Part shown: positions 14,555 through 63,522 of the stretch, piece after piece
How positions within the stretch are numbered: the first letter of the stretch is position 1
Layout: each line of letters starts with the position of its first letter
NCBI RefSeq assembly: GCF_042453785.1
Contig: NC_091670.1
Coordinates: forward strand, 40,559,501 to 40,623,500
Source: Malus domestica
Taxonomy: Eukaryota; Streptophyta; Magnoliopsida; Rosales; Rosaceae
Length of the DNA: 64,000 nucleotides
Direction: 5' to 3'
The notes under the pieces: model-generated
What the model was told of the DNA's origin: nothing
Seen by the model: only the letters and a program-made list of their open reading frames with translations
Databases searched by the model: none
Translations under genes and position numbers: made by a program

Positions 14555-14753
14555 TAAAGACTCTAGTAGTAATTGTATAGTTGGAGTCAGTTAGACAAGG
14601 GTGAATATGTAATTAGTTTCTGAATGTTAAGGTCAATTATGTCAATAGAATTGTATCTATATATATACTGATGTAAATGTCTTGTTGAGTAAGAAAGTGA
14701 AATAAGAAGAAGATATTTTTATCTCTGTACTCTCTGGAAGATAAGACTCAATA
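14555..14753 (+). repeat. 5' LTR of the copia element
   Basis: Starts TAAAGACTCTAG and ends AAGACTCAATA. It contains a TATATATA tract near 14660 that may act as the TATA box. It is 199 bp, the same length as the 3' copy. Confidence 0.95.
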
Positions 14754-14761
14754 TGGTATCA
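14754..14761 (+). other. Primer-binding site of the copia element
   Basis: TGGTATCA directly follows the 5' LTR with no spacer. It complements the 3' end of initiator methionine tRNA, the usual copia primer. The match stops after eight bases. Confidence 0.85.
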
Positions 14762-18000: not shown

Positions 18001-19320
18001 AAGCCAGTCACCATTCGTATTTTATTAACCTTGGCTGTTCAACATGACTGGTTTCTCCATCAATTGGACATTAGCAATGCCTTTTTACACGGAGATCTCA
18101 AGGAAGCTGTTTTTATGACTCAGCCACCTGGTTTCATTGATTCCAATCTTCCCACTCATGTCTGCCACCTCAAGAAATCTTTGTATGGTTTAAAACAAGC
18201 CCCCAGGGCTTGGTTTGATAAACTGTTCCAAGTCATGTGCACTCTTGGGTTTAAGCAGTCCTCCTCTGATGCTTCTCTCTTTGTTCTTCAAGCTTCAGCT
18301 CCTGTTCTTGTTTTGGTCTATGTCGATGACATTCTTGTCACCGGCCCAAATACCATTCTCTGCCAACACTTCATTCACAAACTTAGCCAAGCATTTCCTG
18401 TTAAGGATATGGGCCCTCTTCATTATTTTTTGGGTTTGGAGGTGCAGCGCAATTCTGAAGGCCTCTTCATGCATCAAAGTAAATACTCTCTTGATCTTCT
18501 TCACAAGGCAAATATGGCAGGTGCCAAGCCTTGTGTCACTCCTCTTGGTACCACTAAACTTGATCACAGTGGCCCTTTACTCTCTAATCCCACTGAATAT
18601 AGATCTCTAGTGGGTGGTTTGCAATATCTCACTTGGACCAGGCCTGATCTTTCCTTTGCTGTAAACCAAGTTTGTCAGTTCATGCATTCCCCACGGGAAC
18701 AACACCTGCAAGCTGTTAAACGCATTCTCCGGTTTCTCAAAGGCACTCTTACTCAAGGTCTTTGGTTTAAAAAGGGTTCTCTTGCCCTCACTGCTTATTC
18801 TGATGCTGACTGGGCCGGTTGTACTTTTGATAGACGTTCTACTACTGGCTTCTGTGTGTTTTTGGGTCCCAATCTGATCAGTTGGAATGCTAAAAAGCAA
18901 CCCACTGTTGCCCGGTCCTCCACCGAAGCTGAATATCGTGCTTTAGCACATACTGCAGCTGAAATCACCTGGATTTGCAAAGTTTTTTCTGATATCCACT
19001 TTCCTCTGTCTACTGTTCCAACTCTTTGGTGTGATAACATTTCTGCCATTTCTCTTGCCTCCAATCCCGTGTTTCATGCTCGGACAAAGCATGTAGAAGT
19101 GGATTATCATTACATTCGGGAGTTAGTATTGGCGCATTTGATTAAAGTGCTTTATGTCTGCAGCCAAGATCAATTGGCTGATATTCACACCAAATCCCTT
19201 TCAAAACACAGATTCTGTTTTCTGCAATCCAAGCTTCCTCTTGGCCATTTTCCTGTCCCAAGTCTCAGCTTGAGGGGGTGTAAAGACTCTAGTAGTAATT
19301 GTATAGTTGGAGTCAGTTAG
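15061..19320 (+). CDS. Copia Gag-Pol polyprotein
   Basis: One uninterrupted frame of 1419 residues encodes the proteins for reverse transcription and integration. Domain order is GAG, protease, integrase, reverse transcriptase, RNase H, the copia order. Approximate residues: UBN2-type gag 40-240; CCHC knuckle CQIC...H...C at 319-333; protease WILDSGATS near 367; integrase HHCC from about 505 and DDE core about 567-676 with SDSGGEF and HTPEQNG; RT with KARLVAKG, DISNAFLHG, SLYGLKQAPR and YVDD near 1086; RNase H with DADWAG near 1247 and SSTEAEYRAL. The start is the ATG in ACCATGG context; an upstream in-frame TTG is not credible. The last 13 codons and the stop lie inside the 3' LTR, so the polypurine tract is also coding. 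Confidence 0.97.
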   Translation: MASDSSSSLPNSSSPNPNLVQSYTSLTIQNIGSMVPIKLKSSNYLPWRALFAPILRRYKILGVIDGSEPCPSPLLSDRSVNPAFEQWYEKDQNLLIWLNSTLSEEIIPFTVGVSSSRDLWLKLEQRFGGISDAHIHQLRSRLQSLQKGSQSISEYLQQIKAISDSLTAAGASVSDRDLIAATLHGLPEEFDSFVDSITLCLSSTTLDELHGLLLTKELSMARRKKIVAAEPVHAYAAQSQPPLLPTPHSSQAYAAQHHPMQNSSRYNSNRGRNNNRFPNNRGNRNYQGNNNRGSHSNSGFQRSNNPGFRSSSTPGVRNNCQICGSSSHEAIDCFDRMNPDIFGRVPPTKLAALYTHYASKPSFSWILDSGATSHITHDISNISSPTPYTGEDKVYIGDGKGLSIHHTGSTLLNTVHASFQLHNVLHVPQMKHNLLSAYQFLKDNSCSLTLHSNGSVVKDRSTGKMLLQGTVNNGFYTFQGIPASFSSSCSSPHALVGTKAPVNIWHSRLGHPSSAIFRRVLSAHKLALQGKHSVDFFCSDCAVAKNHKLPFHPSSSISTTSLSLLHCDVWGPAPVISACGYQYYLLIVDDYSKYSWFFPLKAKSDVYSTFVVFKTYVENSVGNKIKCLRSDSGGEFTSNKFKSFLQDHGISHQLSCPHTPEQNGCVEQKHRHLVETARTLLVASKVPHLYWVESLSTAVYLINRLPISSLHQSPWELLFHSVPDYSKLKVFGCSCYPWLKPYVHSKLDGKSTECVFLGYSLQHKGYRCLDPTTQRIYISRHVQFNENRFPFLSSSSVVVSPGSPSPHSPFDLHFSIPQRPSPVQSTVPSTEHVSSSPSSSNSVSPSAAPPTHPPVSHSTAPNTHPMLTRSKAGIFKPKAYSATKHPLPVDVDFVPSTYLQASKYAHWRQAMQDEFNALQLTGTWHLVPHSPSQNIVGCKWVFRIKRKPDGTVDRYKARLVAKGFHQKEGVDYQDTFSPVAKPVTIRILLTLAVQHDWFLHQLDISNAFLHGDLKEAVFMTQPPGFIDSNLPTHVCHLKKSLYGLKQAPRAWFDKLFQVMCTLGFKQSSSDASLFVLQASAPVLVLVYVDDILVTGPNTILCQHFIHKLSQAFPVKDMGPLHYFLGLEVQRNSEGLFMHQSKYSLDLLHKANMAGAKPCVTPLGTTKLDHSGPLLSNPTEYRSLVGGLQYLTWTRPDLSFAVNQVCQFMHSPREQHLQAVKRILRFLKGTLTQGLWFKKGSLALTAYSDADWAGCTFDRRSTTGFCVFLGPNLISWNAKKQPTVARSSTEAEYRALAHTAAEITWICKVFSDIHFPLSTVPTLWCDNISAISLASNPVFHARTKHVEVDYHYIRELVLAHLIKVLYVCSQDQLADIHTKSLSKHRFCFLQSKLPLGHFPVPSLSLRGCKDSSSNCIVGVS
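19271..19280 (+). other. Polypurine tract of the copia element
   Basis: TGAGGGGGTG immediately precedes the 3' LTR and would prime plus-strand synthesis. It is read through by the polyprotein frame. Confidence 0.85.
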
Positions 19321-19479
19321 ACAAGGGTGAATATGTAATTAGTTTATGAATGTTGAGGTCAATTATGTCAATAGAATTGTATCTATATATATACTGATGT
19401 AAATGTCTTGTTGAGTAAGAAAGTGAAATAAGAAGAAGATATTTTTATCTCTGTACTCTCTGGAAGATAAGACTCAATA
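19281..19479 (+). repeat. 3' LTR of the copia element
   Basis: Matches the 5' LTR except for two substitutions (C to A and A to G within the first 80 bp). It also carries the last codons and the stop of the polyprotein. Confidence 0.95.
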
Positions 19480-19484
19480 TGAGC

Positions 19485-52140: not shown

Positions 52141-52539
52141 AAATTTCTTAACGAGCTACATTATTTGTGTCGAGTTGCATTTACGCGTAATGAGTCAAAC
52201 AATGTCCAGGAAAGAATTATTATGGTTGAGGTGTTATTCGTCATTACCTGAATAACTGTTTCTTCTGGTCGGTCGTCACTCCTAAATCCTAATTAAGGGA
52301 AAAAGTGTAAAAGTGATTAATACCTCAAAGTCATTGATTCTTCACTTTATATGTAAAGTCTCTGATTAACATGGCAAGAACACGACCCCAACTTTCAAAA
52401 GTGATAGTGACATTTTTCCACACGAAATTATATTGAAATTTTTTTTGGTATGTAAATTTTTTTTATATAAAACAAAATAAACTATTTTCTTACATTTACG
52501 TACGTACTACTGTTGTGGTTTAGAAAACCAATAGCTAAT
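52141..52539. other. Intergenic, no gene
   Basis: Short similarity to 50940-51028 (AACGAGCTAC, then GTAATGAGTCAA and AAAGAATTATTA against related text) suggests old repeats around this locus, but the match is weak. Confidence 0.35.
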
Positions 52540-52814
52540 TGTTAGATCTCACATCGTCTAGGGGAGTGGATCATCTATGCCTTATATGTACATGTCCACC
52601 TCCATATAGCACGAGACTTTTTGGGAGCTCACTAGTTTCGGGTTCCGTAAGAACTCTGAAGTTAAGCGAGGAAGGGGTCAGGGCATTCCCAGGATGGGTG
52701 ACCCAATAGGAAGTTCTGCTCGCATGAGTTCCCAGAAACAAAATCGTGAGGGCATAGTCGAGGCCCAAAGCGAACAATGTCATGCTACGGCGGAGTCGGG
52801 GTCAGGATGTGACA
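52540..52814 (+). repeat. Cassandra LTR 1 with 5S-like domain
   Basis: Begins TGTTAGATCTCACATCG and ends GATGTGACA. The 5S-like part spans about 52622-52738, with GAACTCTGAAGTTAAGCG and AGGATGGGTGACC, the most conserved stretches of plant 5S rRNA and its internal promoter. It is not a functional rRNA gene. Confidence 0.92.
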
Positions 52815-52888
52815 ATTTGGTATCAGAACCACTATGTTGTTCGGTGCGAGTGTGCTGACGAGGACGTCGAACCCATAAGGGGGTGGAT

Positions 52889-53189
52889 TGTTAGATCCCA
52901 CATCGCCTAGGGGAGTAGATCCTCTATGCCTTATATGTACATGCCCACCTTTATATAGCACGAGACCTTTTGAGAGCTTACTAGCTTCGGGTTCCGTAGG
53001 AATTCTGAAGTTAAGTGAGGAAGGGGTCAGAGTATTCCCAAGATGGGTAGGGCCAGAGTATTCCCAAGATGGGTAACCTACTAGGAAGTTCTGCTCGCAT
53101 GAGTTCCCATAAACAAAACCGTGAGGGCATAGTCGGGGCCCATAACGGACAATATCGTGCTACGGTGAAGGCGGAGCCGGGATGTGACA
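52889..53189 (+). repeat. Cassandra LTR 2 with duplication inside the 5S-like domain
   Basis: As LTR 1, but AGAGTATTCCCAAGATGGGT occurs twice in tandem (about 53025-53071), accounting for most of its extra length. The duplication falls in the 3' half of the 5S-like region. Confidence 0.92.
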
Positions 53190-53264
53190 ATTTGGTATCA
53201 GAACCACTTTGCCGTTCGGTGCGAATATGCCGACGAAGACGTCGAACCCCTAAGGGGGGTGGAT

Positions 53265-53561
53265 TGTTAGATCTCACATCGCCTAGGGGAGTGAATCATC
53301 TATGCCTTATATGTACATGCCCACCTTCATATAGCACGAGGCCTTTTGGGAGCTTACTAGCTTCGAGTTCCGTAGGAACTCCGAAGTTAAGCGAGGAATG
53401 GACTAGAGCATTCCCAGGATGGGTGACCCACTAGGAAGTTCTTCTCGCGTGAGTTCTCATAAACAAAACCGTGAGGATGTGGTCAGAGCTCAAAGCGGAC
53501 AATATCGTGCTACGACGGAGTTGAGCTCAGAATGTGGTAAAGCCTGGATCCTGATGCGACA
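53265..53561 (+). repeat. Cassandra LTR 3, diverged 3' end
   Basis: Begins TGTTAGATCTCACATCG. The end is degenerate (TGATGCGACA in place of GATGTGACA). The 5S-like block with GAACTCCGAAGTTAAGCG is the best preserved of the three. Confidence 0.88.
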
Positions 53562-57048: not shown

Positions 57049-57338
57049 TGTGACATCCCACATCGCCTAGGGGAATGGATCATGTAAGCCTTATATGTAT
57101 ATTTTCATCTATACCTAGCACGAGGCATTTTGGGAGCTCACTGGCTTCGGATTCCATTAGAACTCCGAAGTTAAGCGAGTTCGCGCGAGAGCAATCCCAT
57201 GATGGGTGACCCATTGGAAAGTTTTCGTCTGAGTTCCTAGAAACAAAACCGTGAGGACGTGGTCGGGATCCAAATCGGATAATATCATGCTACGGTGTCG
57301 AGCCCGGAATGTGATGGGATCCGAGTCAGGATGTGACA
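57049..57338 (+). mobile_element. Solo Cassandra LTR
   Basis: A 290-bp LTR with TGTGACA at both ends (a direct repeat at the termini) and the 5S-like block GAACTCCGAAGTTAAGCGAG. Perfect 5-bp flanking repeats AACGG lie at 57044-57048 and 57339-57343. No internal domain is present, so a complete element recombined to a solo LTR. It sits inside an older repeat related to 54781-54990. Confidence 0.93.
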
Positions 57339-58992: not shown

Positions 58993-61900
58993 CTATACTG
59001 GGGAAAACAGAGTAGCTAAACCTTGATCCACGGTTATTTGAAGTTCGTCGTACGTCATCAGTGTCTTTTGGTCACATTTGTATGCTCCTCTGCCTCTAGC
59101 CAGGACCTCGCCATCTGAGTCGATTATCCCTCCCTTAACTGGGTCCTCGGTGCGAGGACCAGGTTGCAAAATAAATGCTTTCACCTGCAGTATGTCACAA
59201 GAAACGTTATTAAGGCTTCTTATTTGCCCAAAGGTAGACAAAATCTTGAGCAATAGTAAATGCTCGAGAGTTTGATTTTGCTGACCTTGAAGTACAAGAC
59301 ATATGGTGATTTGATATGGCTTCCGGTGCTCAACCCAGCCATCAACGAGAGCAATGATAATTTTGGACAGGCCCTCATCAATATCACGTCTATATAACCA
59401 TCCGAGAACTGCAAAGGAGCACGAATACATGTGAATTATTCGAGTTTTAAATAAACATCCCTAGAAAGTGTTAGCGGAGAAGTATCTGAAGTATATGCTA
59501 CGCAATTTTACAGTCCAACCTTGGCATCAGGCGCTGCCTTTGTGTCTTCACCACCCCAAGGCACATTGTGAAGCCAGATTGAAACGAAGGGCCCCCTAAT
59601 AGTTCTCCAGTCCATGCTATCCAAGTTAATATCAGGCCCCTCATAGCCATGCTGTCGAATGTTAATCGGTTCCTCTTGATTTGGAGCACATGCAATGTGT
59701 TGGTTAGCAGGTTCACTGTCATTACTGTAACTAGTCGGCTCTCCGTAAGTTTCAAAGCCCGGTGCAGGCACAAACGAAATAGATCCATGATATTGCCTCA
59801 AACGCACAATCCGTTGAACAGCCTAAAATACATAAACAATTATTACTAATTTCTTGCCATTCAAATCCATCATACACAAGCACACGAACATCTGCATTAG
59901 CAATGGAGTAATCCGTTAACATAACAAACGAGAGATTTAAACTTACATAGAAATCTAGTCGAGCACTTCCCATCCACCTATACTTCTCAGACTCAATGTC
60001 AATATCTGCCACTAAACCTGAAAGCAGATAAAGCTTTATTAGGTACCTATAAAATCATTGCATTTTTCCACTATCCAGTGGTGATACTTTTCACTTACCC
60101 CATGCAAGCATCAATACACTAAAGAATTTGGTCTTCCCCTGGCATATGGTAGCTACATCCAGTGAACGCTTATGCCCTGACCGTAAAAAAAACCACAAAG
60201 AAAAATTCATTAATCAAAACAATTACCAACAGAGTAATAGAAAGGGAGGAATCATAATATTTTGAGCACAGTATAACGATAGACAGACAGCATATATAAC
60301 CTCGAATAATGGCGAGAACAGCATTAGAAGGTGTACAAGGTTCACCAACAGAATCCGAAAGAGATTTGCCATTCCATTTCCAGTACCTAATGGAGAGAAT
60401 CTCGTCAGAAATTAATCTTGAAAACAAAAACAGACAAATAACTATGCTTGTTTTGAAGCGCAAACATACAATTCACCGCTTTGCCCTCACCTTTTGAAGA
60501 AGTAACTTTCCACAGGCTTATTCTTGAACTGAGCTGGAGGGTTTTCTGGTTTCCTCCAGAGTATAAGGCCGACTGAAGAATTTGAGGGTCAAAACAAGTC
60601 CATCAAATCTAGAGTACGTTCGACCCTGCTGATATGGGATACTTTTGCTTTTGACAAAGTAATGGATGGATCGGCACGTGTGCTGTTACGCTTGTCTCCA
60701 CATGCTTCCAGATAGGGCAAGTGCGAAGGATACAAGGAAGCATGTGGAGACAAGCGTAACAGCACACGTGCCGATCCATCCATTACTTTGTCAAAAGCAA
60801 AAGTATCCCATATCAGCAGGGTCGAACGTACTCTAGATTTGATGGACTTGTTTTGACCCTCAAATTCTTCAGTCGGCCTTATACTCTGGAGGAAACCAGA
60901 AAACCCTCCAGCTCAGTTCAAGAATAAGCCTGTGGAAAGTTACTTCTTCAAAAGCAAAAGTATCCCATATCATCTCTTCTCATTTTTCTTCTCTTTATCC
61001 TTCATGCTGCTGCAAGATGGGGAGAAGGTGAATAATCAGCCGGAGCTCTGATTGCTTACCTTGTCTGTCACCTCTTTCAGCAAATCCCCTAGCTCGGCGA
61101 CTTGGGGGACTCCTACTACATGGTTTGTATCGCGCTTGACCAAGCCTGAAACTACAAGTAAGCTTCAAGTGAAATTGATACATTACCTTGTGCATCTCCA
61201 CCAGTTAAAGATACCACCCCTGGATGGAGGAAGAGTACTTCCAGAGAAGCTGCCACATCTACCTATGAGACAGATAAGGCAAGTCAAGATGATACCACAC
61301 TCCGATACTTAGAAGTTTCGTGATTACGAGATCATTCTCCCACAATATTTCCTAATGTCATTTGTACTCTAATGTCATTTGTACTAAATCATTCACTTAT
61401 ACTCACTAAAGGAGAGCTTGAACCTATGTACTTGTGTAAACCCTTCACAATTAATGAGAACTCTTCTATTCCGTGGACATAGCCAATCTGGGTGAACCAC
61501 GTACATCTTGTGTTTGCTTTCCTATCTCTATCCATTTATATACTTATCCACACTAATGACCGGAGCAATTTAGCGAAGATCACAAAAAGCGACCGTTTTC
61601 GCTACCTAGGATCTATCTTACAAGAGAACGGAGAATTAGATGGAGATCTCAACCATAGAATACGAGCTGGATGGATGAAGTGTAAGAGTGCATCCAGTAT
61701 GTTGTGTGACCGTCGTAGGCCACTGAAGCTCAAGGGAAAATTTTATAAGACGGCAATAAGGCCAGCGATGTTGTATGGCACAGAATGTTGGGCGGTGAAA
61801 CATCAACACGTACACAAAATGGGTGTAGCAGAGATGAGGATGCTTCGTGGGATGTGTGGGCACACGAGAAAGGATAAGATTGAGAATGCGGATATCCGAG

Positions 61901-63522
61901 GTAAAGTAGGAGTAGCCGAAATTGAAGGAAAGATGAGAGAAAATCGGTTCCGGTGATTTGGACATGTGCAAAGAAGGCCGACTGACGCTCCGGTTCGAAG
62001 ATGTGACTACGGGACAGAGGTTCAGGGCCGAAGGGGTAGAGGAAGACCTAGGAAAACTTTGGAAGAGACTCTAAGAAAAGGTTTAGAGTACTTGGATCTA
62101 ACGGAGGACATGACACAAAACCGAGCGCAATGGCGTTCTAGGATTCATATAGCCGACCCCACTTAGTGGGAAAAGGCTTTGTTGTTGTTGTTGTAAAATA
62201 TAAAGAAAATTGAGAATTAAAGAGTACGAAACCTGCAGGAACTACTCCAAGGGGGATCTTTATTGCAGCATCCCAATCCTCTCTCTCAAGGAATCCATTT
62301 ACTACCTACTAAAAAGTGCAACGCTTGTAAGAAGAAAATAGTAAAACTATGTTTACCAAATTACCGCAGCTCTCCCTGCAATCAAAATCTAACTCATTTG
62401 ACGGAAAAGAGAAAAAACAAAGTTTGTCAGCGTTAGTAATTTGATTCATCAACAGCGTCATCTGCTCGATCACAACATGGCATTGCTCGTGTTTATCATG
62501 GCTGCCACCGATAACTGCAAACTAACCTCAACCAAGATTCCATCCCCACTAACACAAACAACGCCATCATACTTTGAAAGATCTAGTGTTTTAGCAACTT
62601 CCTTCGCATGTAGTTGATATCGAGTTTCTGAGAAATTCGATCAAGAAACAATTACGAAAAGGGAAACATTAACTCGACCCGCAATTCACAGATCCAAAAT
62701 TCAGTATCACACGTCAACTAACAACTAATAAGCAAAACATTGACGGAAATTCCTAACCTTGCAGCGTAAATTGGATGCCGGCATCCTCGAAAAGAGGTTT
62801 TACGTGATCAAGATAAATCTTTGAAGCAGATTTGCTCCCACCAAACGGATTCACAAAAACAAACAGCCTCTTTGGCCGTCCTGTGCAAAAGAGGATAAAT
62901 TACCACCTATATTATCACTATATATGCAAGAAAGTAAACAATAAACCATAAGTTCATGTTATTTTCAATAATTAACCTCAATTAAGTACAAATTAGAGTA
63001 AAAGGAGCTTGATTTAGCTTGAGCTAACAAATTAGAACGAAAACAACAGAAATTCAAAAATCTCAACGGTCAAACAAGAAGAAGTCATAAGTCAACTTTT
63101 CCAAGCATGCATTTAATTTTCCTGCATTTTCCTATCAACCAAACAGGACATAAGCCGATTACAAGCATACGAAAGTTACCGAGAGAATCGATGTAATCAC
63201 GGAGCTTCTGGCACCAGAGCCGGTGCGATTCCTCAAAGAGAGGCTCGAACACCAAGTCCTTCCGCGCCACAGCTCCTCTGCTCGCGGCGCAGCAGATTCC
63301 AGCTCGGCCTTCAACTAAAGCTCTTATCCTAATCTTCGGGCCTTCTGCCGCGAACCCGAGGACCTCCTTCTCGACGATCAAGCTCCGGTGACCTCTCTGC
63401 GACCACTGGAGCACTCCGTCGGAGAATAGAGTCACCGGTGTAACAACGCCGTTTATGAGAACCCGGTCGGAGATAAGGGATTCTGGTGGAGCGGACTCGG
63501 GTACGCGTCCGGGTCGGTCCAT
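58993..63522 (-). CDS. SPHK1: Sphingosine kinase, frameshifted in the catalytic core (possible pseudogene)
   Basis: Phosphorylates sphingoid bases to signalling lipids such as phytosphingosine-1-phosphate. Ten exons: 63180-63522, 62758-62880, 62527-62627, 62233-62305, 60301-60386, 60099-60176, 59947-60017, 59520-59822, 59286-59408, 58993-59184. Family blocks: LFVFVNPFGGSKSASKIY, VVCVSGDGILVEVVNG (nucleotide-binding GDG), LMLAWGLVADIDIESEKYRW, FVSIWLHNVPWG, FSDGYIDVILMR and the end YDELQITVDQGLATLFSP. All exons keep phase except exon 5, which is 86 bp where 87 is needed: in GTGNGMAKS one A is missing near 60372. Read literally, the frame meets a stop early in exon 6. Ignoring the gap the protein would be about 497 residues, near the Arabidopsis length. 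The start is the first true ATG; an upstream in-frame TTG is not used. Intron 4 (60387-62232) is swollen by transposons. Confidence 0.9.
60491..60954. repeat. Perfect 219-bp inverted repeat with 26-bp loop
   Basis: Arms 60491-60709 and 60736-60954 are exact reverse complements by direct reading, from CTTTTGAAGAAGTAACTTTC at the left to ACATGCTTCC at the loop. The sequence to the right of the right arm looks continuous with it (the pattern CAAAAGCAAAAGTATCCCAT also recurs at the junction). The left arm is therefore probably an inverted copy of retroelement DNA. It lies in intron 4 of the kinase gene. Confidence 0.95.
60955..61555 (+). mobile_element. Probable LTR-retrotransposon fragment
   Basis: Non-coding sequence with features of a retroelement end: a tandem ATGTCATTTGTACT-type repeat near 61350-61385, TTTATATACTTATCC near 61535, and a low-complexity leader. 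I recall similar text in Rosaceae LTR elements, but no LTR boundary or domain is proved here. Confidence 0.45.
61556..62194 (+). mobile_element. 5'-truncated RTE-type LINE with TTG tail
   Basis: Encodes the C-terminal part of an RTE-clade LINE protein: RYLGSILQENGELDGDLNH, KCKSASSMLCDRR, LKGKFYKTAIRPAMLYGTEC, HKMGVAEMRMLRGMCGHTRK, FGHVQRRPTDAPVRR, GRRGRGRPRKT and the end RSRIHIADPT. One in-frame TGA at 61954-61956 replaces the tryptophan normally before FGHV. The element ends in a (TTG)n tail at about 62180-62194, typical of plant RTE LINEs. It is antisense to the kinase gene. The endonuclease and RT core are absent. Confidence 0.9.

Follow-up and report, generated by a model that had tools for sequence, protein, structure and literature searches.

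The window, by which we mean the whole 64-kb stretch of DNA analysed here (C10:40559501-40623500 in a source genome of 651 Mb and 19 contigs), contains a perfect inverted repeat in an intron of a sphingosine-kinase-like gene. The left arm (60491-60709, minus strand) and the right arm (60736-60954, plus strand) are complementary at 219 of 219 positions, as was rechecked by exact equality, and enclose a loop of 26 nt (60710-60735, plus strand), which confirms position for position the perfect intronic repeat described in the earlier note. The length of the arms excludes an origin by chance. No other long hairpin of the window is as perfect: a BLASTN comparison of the window with itself (E up to 1e-10) gave further inverted pairs with 71-87% identity over 69-304 bp, apart from one exact pair of 36 bp. 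RNA of the minus strand, which is the sense strand of the gene, is predicted to fold into a single 219-bp stem of -435.7 kcal/mol, against an average of -120.8 kcal/mol for 100 shuffled sequences.

Architecture of the insertion and its target site

A retroelement origin had been proposed for the hairpin. This held, but the hairpin does not stand by itself and proved to be only the 5' end of a single 1.7-kb LINE insertion (60491 to about 62193), the remainder of which (60710 to about 62193) had been left unjoined. The forward part of the insertion is a 5'-truncated RTE-like LINE copy of about 1,485 bp on the plus strand (60709-62193), with a (TTG)n tail at its 3' junction (62178-62193). The loop is the first 26 nt of the forward copy. 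The right arm consists of ordinary family sequence in forward orientation and belongs to the non-LINE segment found in the family. In the left arm the LINE segment 60736-60954, positions 28-246 of the forward copy itself, is present a second time, inverted and placed 5' of the forward copy; base 60709 (C) is common to the arm and the forward copy and forms a microhomology of 1 nt at the inner junction. Six other copies of the family match 60709 to 62193/62194 without a break, and upstream of it they carry sequence that is absent from the window. The left arm matches these same six copies, which were picked as the best matches, at 100% in reverse orientation and as their interior; it corresponds to an internal part of the family and lacks a separate tail.

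These relations bear on two candidate origins. A MITE or another element with terminal inverted repeats was rejected, since the 3' continuation of the family lies on one arm only and the arm ends are internal family positions, in line with the earlier view that the repeat derives from a retroelement and not from a MITE. Two independent head-to-head insertions were likewise rejected, since no (TTG)n tail terminates the left arm, whose end is an internal family position.

Of the reverse transcriptase (RT) frame, the window copy keeps no more than a remnant of the C-terminal region (61583-62163, plus strand). The open pieces run from 61483 to 61953 and from 61957 to 62163 with a stop between them, and from 61583 on (probe position 848) the sequence is similar to the LINE end in the first half of the family. 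On its own, the open piece 61483-61953 matched no Pfam family; a longer reading in another copy (L015:2-1576) has RVT_1 and shares its C-terminal sequence with the window remnant.

The homeolog of the host gene on C5 does not carry the insertion and served as a proxy for the empty site, being a homeolog and not an allele, with 84-93% identity over the aligned pieces. Collinearity of the window with C5 extends as far as the first five bases of the left arm and resumes where the (TTG)n tail ends. These first five bases, CTTTT, are also target sequence in the homeolog, so that target and element share a 5-nt microhomology at the outer junction; the inner junction shares 1 nt. At random junctions, five or more shared bases have a probability of 0.006. 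About 40 bp of the C5 intron are absent from the window; this loss and the junction bases are read across the divergence of the homeologs, and the 40-bp loss might be older than the insertion. The window copy showed no target-site duplication. At the right end, where the homeologous target reads TTTTGTTAAATA, the nicked target end might pair with the UUG repeats of the element's RNA.

The LINE family and the age of the insertion

The family is very common in the source genome, where 3,415 sites match a 40-nt pattern taken from its 3' end (at most one mismatch) and 2,805 match a 30-mer from the right arm (at most two mismatches). From the 5' sequence, an LTR element was suspected first, and this was rejected on account of the common (TTG)n end, the differing flanks and the presence of both an endonuclease (EN) and an RT domain. 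Among ten longer copies that were fetched, eight share the (TTG)n end with differing flanks beyond it and a ninth does so by a looser pattern, while the tenth (L016) lacks the 3' end; these longer copies start at differing 5' points. A long family copy on C6 matches Exo_endo_phos at E 1e-9 (L042) and RVT_1 at E 9e-36 (L015). When flanking duplications were sought in six copies, taking as the 5' start the point where matches to other copies begin, two copies showed duplications of 14 and 15 bp, three showed none that was clear, and the sixth was L016, which has no tail. All seven flowering-plant RTE families in Table 3 of PMC3747384 end in (TTG)n or (TTGATG)n. The family is a LINE, and judged by its tail with differing flanks, its EN and RT domains and the tail rule of that table, its clade is most likely RTE. 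It resembles plant RTE-clade LINEs in its (TTG)n 3' end, its EN and RT, its 5' truncation and the flanking duplications of some copies, and differs from them in carrying about 4 kb of non-LINE sequence between the RT frame and a second LINE 3' end.

This composite structure was seen at L042:1506-3201 and L015:1-6310 (C6), with L010, L013 and L019 for comparison. An open frame with EN (L042) and RT (L015) has no (TTG)n tail at its end. Beyond it lie the roughly 4 kb of non-LINE sequence and, after these, a second, 5'-truncated LINE 3' end, about 93% identical, which does carry the tail. The arrangement looks like the product of a 3' transduction, in which transcription ran on into the LINE end downstream, and which later spread with the family. 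The non-LINE segment (L009:2577-4184) contains overlapping direct repeats of 616, 299 and 219 bp with 95.9-97.0% identity. An antisense open frame of 236 aa is found in at least two copies (L015:1843-2550, minus strand, and L019:2079-2786 of the oriented copy, minus strand), and the L015 frame has no Pfam match. A palindrome at L014:8887-9121 (81%) sits in the 3' flank of that copy.

As for further copies of the hairpin in the family, the 26-nt junction of left arm and loop (at most two mismatches) matches the 651-Mb genome once, and the two window arms are the sole opposite-strand neighbours within 5 kb among 100 listed of the 2,805 arm matches, none of the 98 other places having one; within this scope, the hairpin was not seen in further copies. 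An inverted family piece was seen in none of 22 fetched copies, although in 11 of the 12 of the later-fetched set the family sequence reaches the fetched edge, so that 5' ends were out of view, and the absence of inverted pieces from these 22 copies is weak evidence. These 12 later copies came from the 3'-end matches listed on C1, nine from the head of the list and three from further down, and are not a random draw. Weak inverted matches, one each in nine of the 12, were traced to a 61-bp match of 79% between the LINE 3' end and a LINE-like end in the flank of L009, and do not represent an inversion. Copies L003-L019 had been picked for highest arm identity, which makes the lack of arm variation among them uninformative; L018 does not count as a family copy, as it is the downstream flank of the window itself. 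In the comparison of copies, L006 was dropped as the same place as L011, L003, L004 and L007 were left unused as the same places as L009, L010 and L012, and L030 and L039 gave partial coverage only.

The window copy is 99.0-99.7% identical to 11 of 12 close copies and 97.4% identical (gaps counted) to the twelfth, with 5-12 substitutions in up to 1,484 bp against each of them. Four substitutions in 1,484 bp are private to the window copy, being absent from 24 compared copies wherever these cover the site; three of the four are T against C, and all four lie outside the arm. With a substitution rate in plants of about 7e-9 per site and year, these four private substitutions would correspond to an insertion age of some 0.4 million years with a wide error, which suggests that the insertion is young, though not brand-new. 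The identity of the arms had been taken to imply a very recent origin, and this is borne out only in so far as the insertion appears relatively young, since 0 differences in 219 bp bound the age weakly and the copy has had time for four private substitutions. At the rate of these substitutions, simple arithmetic gives about 1.2 expected differences between the arms and a chance of about 30% for none; identical arms are therefore unremarkable, and neither prove nor need an exceptionally recent origin.

Origin of the inverted piece

In twin priming, the second end of the opened target pairs inside the element's RNA and primes a second cDNA there, and microhomology is therefore expected at the outer junction; the inverted piece usually comes from upstream of the forward piece. 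At the window locus, a 5' segment is inverted within one insertion, and, with the homeolog as the proxy empty site, the 5-nt outer microhomology is located just where twin priming predicts the primer to pair. We consider it probable that the hairpin is a twin-primed, 5'-truncated LINE insertion with two completely overlapping cDNAs. The element's endonuclease would have opened the target, and the right-hand 3' end would have paired with UUG repeats and primed the main cDNA, whose synthesis would have ended at about 1,485 nt. On the left, the 3' end (..CTTTT) would have annealed to AAAAG, either within that RNA or within another one, and primed a second cDNA, 219 nt long; both cDNAs would then have been joined head to head. 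A perfect hairpin, and not a simple 5' inversion, would arise because the second cDNA lies wholly within the stretch copied by the first.

It is this nesting that sets the locus apart, for the inverted piece lies wholly inside the forward piece and does not derive from upstream of it with at most a partial duplication. Our claim is that the event works like twin priming, and the complete overlap is a departure. For the two cDNAs to be fully nested, either a strand must be displaced on one RNA or two RNAs must take part. This stands against twin priming, together with the target-site duplication not found at the window copy and the lack of recurrence, in that a second inverted copy was not seen among the listed places and fetched copies.

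5' inversions of L1 are common, with 298/1634 in PMC5668948 and 354 events (29.5%) in PMC10191854, and small duplications at L1 inversion junctions have been described (PMC5668948; a figure legend in PMC12350158). Among 5'-inverted L1 copies, microhomology is commoner at the 5' junction than at the inversion junction (PMC2912911), and the 5 nt against 1 nt found here follow the same ranking, outer above inversion junction. The window insertion thus resembles 5'-inverted mammalian LINE-1 copies in its inverted 5' part, its 5' truncation and its outer and small inner microhomology, whereas it differs in the wholly nested inverted part that makes a perfect hairpin, in the plant host, in the (TTG)n end, and in the missing 40 bp or so of target with no duplication. 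A completely nested case was not met with in the literature consulted, in a search that was not aimed at nesting alone, which is weak evidence; nor did the papers found on twin priming and inversion in plant LINEs deal with a plant LINE, judged by title and opening of the abstract, their topics being human or mouse elements, general reviews and a transposon-population model.

The main rival to twin priming is self-priming of the cDNA, in which the stopped first-strand cDNA would fold back on itself, prime 219 nt of synthesis, and have its end joined to the target by microhomology-mediated end joining. Such a snap-back would yield a fully nested, perfectly identical inverted piece with no need to prime twice, and the manner of joining would also account for the outer 5 nt. 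Short foldback inversions upstream of the target site are reported for L1 (3 events, 0.3%, with about 52-220 bp of extra synthesis; PMC10191854), although these lie in sequence 5' of the target site. The details of the junction are less favourable to it, as the 3' end of the cDNA pairs with its re-entry point by 1 nt only, and when the terminal 82 nt of the cDNA are folded by prediction, the final two bases stay unpaired and 75 of 200 shuffled sequences fold at least as well. We thus hold a snap-back to be possible but doubtful.

A third candidate is an inverted duplication made later at the DNA level in a 5'-truncated LINE that had already been inserted, the template having been switched at a break or a replication fork. 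In humans, when events due to mobile elements are set aside, inverted duplications are the commonest class of inversions (277 events with a median of 284 bp), and most of them show 1-15 bp of microhomology (PMC12350158). At the window locus, however, the end of the arm coincides exactly with the host junction, and the start of the forward copy with the loop, and therefore a second event with breaks at the 5' end of the insertion would be needed; nor was a target-site duplication found, and we judge this route highly improbable.

Perfect inverted repeats are a known class of artefact, but whereas mirroring up to the end of the molecule would be expected of a fold-back, the mirror here ends at 219 bp and enters the correct host intron via the 5-nt microhomology, and both flanks keep their collinearity with the homeolog. 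This makes a fold-back of the assembly unlikely, and an assembly or library artefact in general seems barely credible.

The host gene and the silencing potential of the hairpin

The sphingosine-kinase-like gene extends over 58996-63522 on the minus strand, its ends being approximate, with about ten coding exons by comparison with the homeolog. The assignment comes from searches with the homeolog's peptide: the joined exon pieces of the C5 homeolog match DAGK_cat and sphingosine kinase 1 structures. The hairpin lies between exons 4 and 5, in intron 4 (60387-62232, minus strand), which measures 1,846 nt against 181 nt in the homeolog.

The host gene had been called damaged. It aligns with its homeolog in ten pieces, and exon 5 (60301-60386, minus strand) is one base shorter than the homeolog's, with one T (plus strand) missing from a homopolymer at 60365-60367 relative to C5. 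This missing base would be a frameshift if real, and may instead be a homopolymer error of the assembly; the nine other pieces lie in open frames, so that the description as a damaged gene applies at most to this one base. The further suggestion that the hairpin might impair the splicing of exon 5 found no support. Both splice sites are intact (donor with first intron base 62232, acceptor with last intron base 60387) and 104 intron bases separate the hairpin from exon 5, and although the intron is far longer than its homeologous counterpart, nothing in these features suggests that exon 5 must be spliced less well.

The kinase pre-mRNA would carry a 219-bp double-stranded stem, and in a long-lived intron this could be a substrate of Dicer-like enzymes, as the earlier note had suggested, and give rise to siRNAs matching many copies of the family. 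The production of siRNAs from the hairpin is a plausible prediction. It is likelier, however, that the hairpin does nothing, and a passive insertion is the default reading.

A close known parallel is Mu killer of maize, an inverted duplication of part of a transposable element, for which read-through from a neighbouring gene into a hairpin RNA has been proposed in PMC3440606, which also offers a model with an antisense transcript. The window hairpin is likewise an inverted duplication of part of a transposable element; Mu killer, on the other hand, silences MuDR and has an inverted segment of about 1.3 kb, whereas the window hairpin measures 219 bp, would have thousands of copies as its putative targets and is known from sequence alone. 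It would be a long shot to suppose that nested twin priming produced in one step an intronic hairpin on a host promoter with siRNAs against a LINE family of thousands of copies, that is, the birth of a Mu-killer-like silencer, and that such events may be a general source of young hairpin loci in plants.

As a single locus, the hairpin is a well-explained curiosity, and the event is ordinary in kind, involving a very common plant LINE family and probably a known type of copying accident. Its wider interest lies in a single-step route to a long, perfect intragenic hairpin, without transposon-end palindromes or a head-to-head pair of insertions. If overlapping insertions recur, they would be a source of double-stranded RNA loci carrying their own family's sequence, and a copying accident could become the start of transposon silencing.

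The window also contains direct repeats. Several direct repeat copies of about 250-650 bp with 71-86% identity occur at 52538-53536 and 57049-57313. Two direct copies of 201 bp (14555-14755 and 19281-19481) are 99% identical and 4.7 kb apart, and could be LTRs or another recent duplication.
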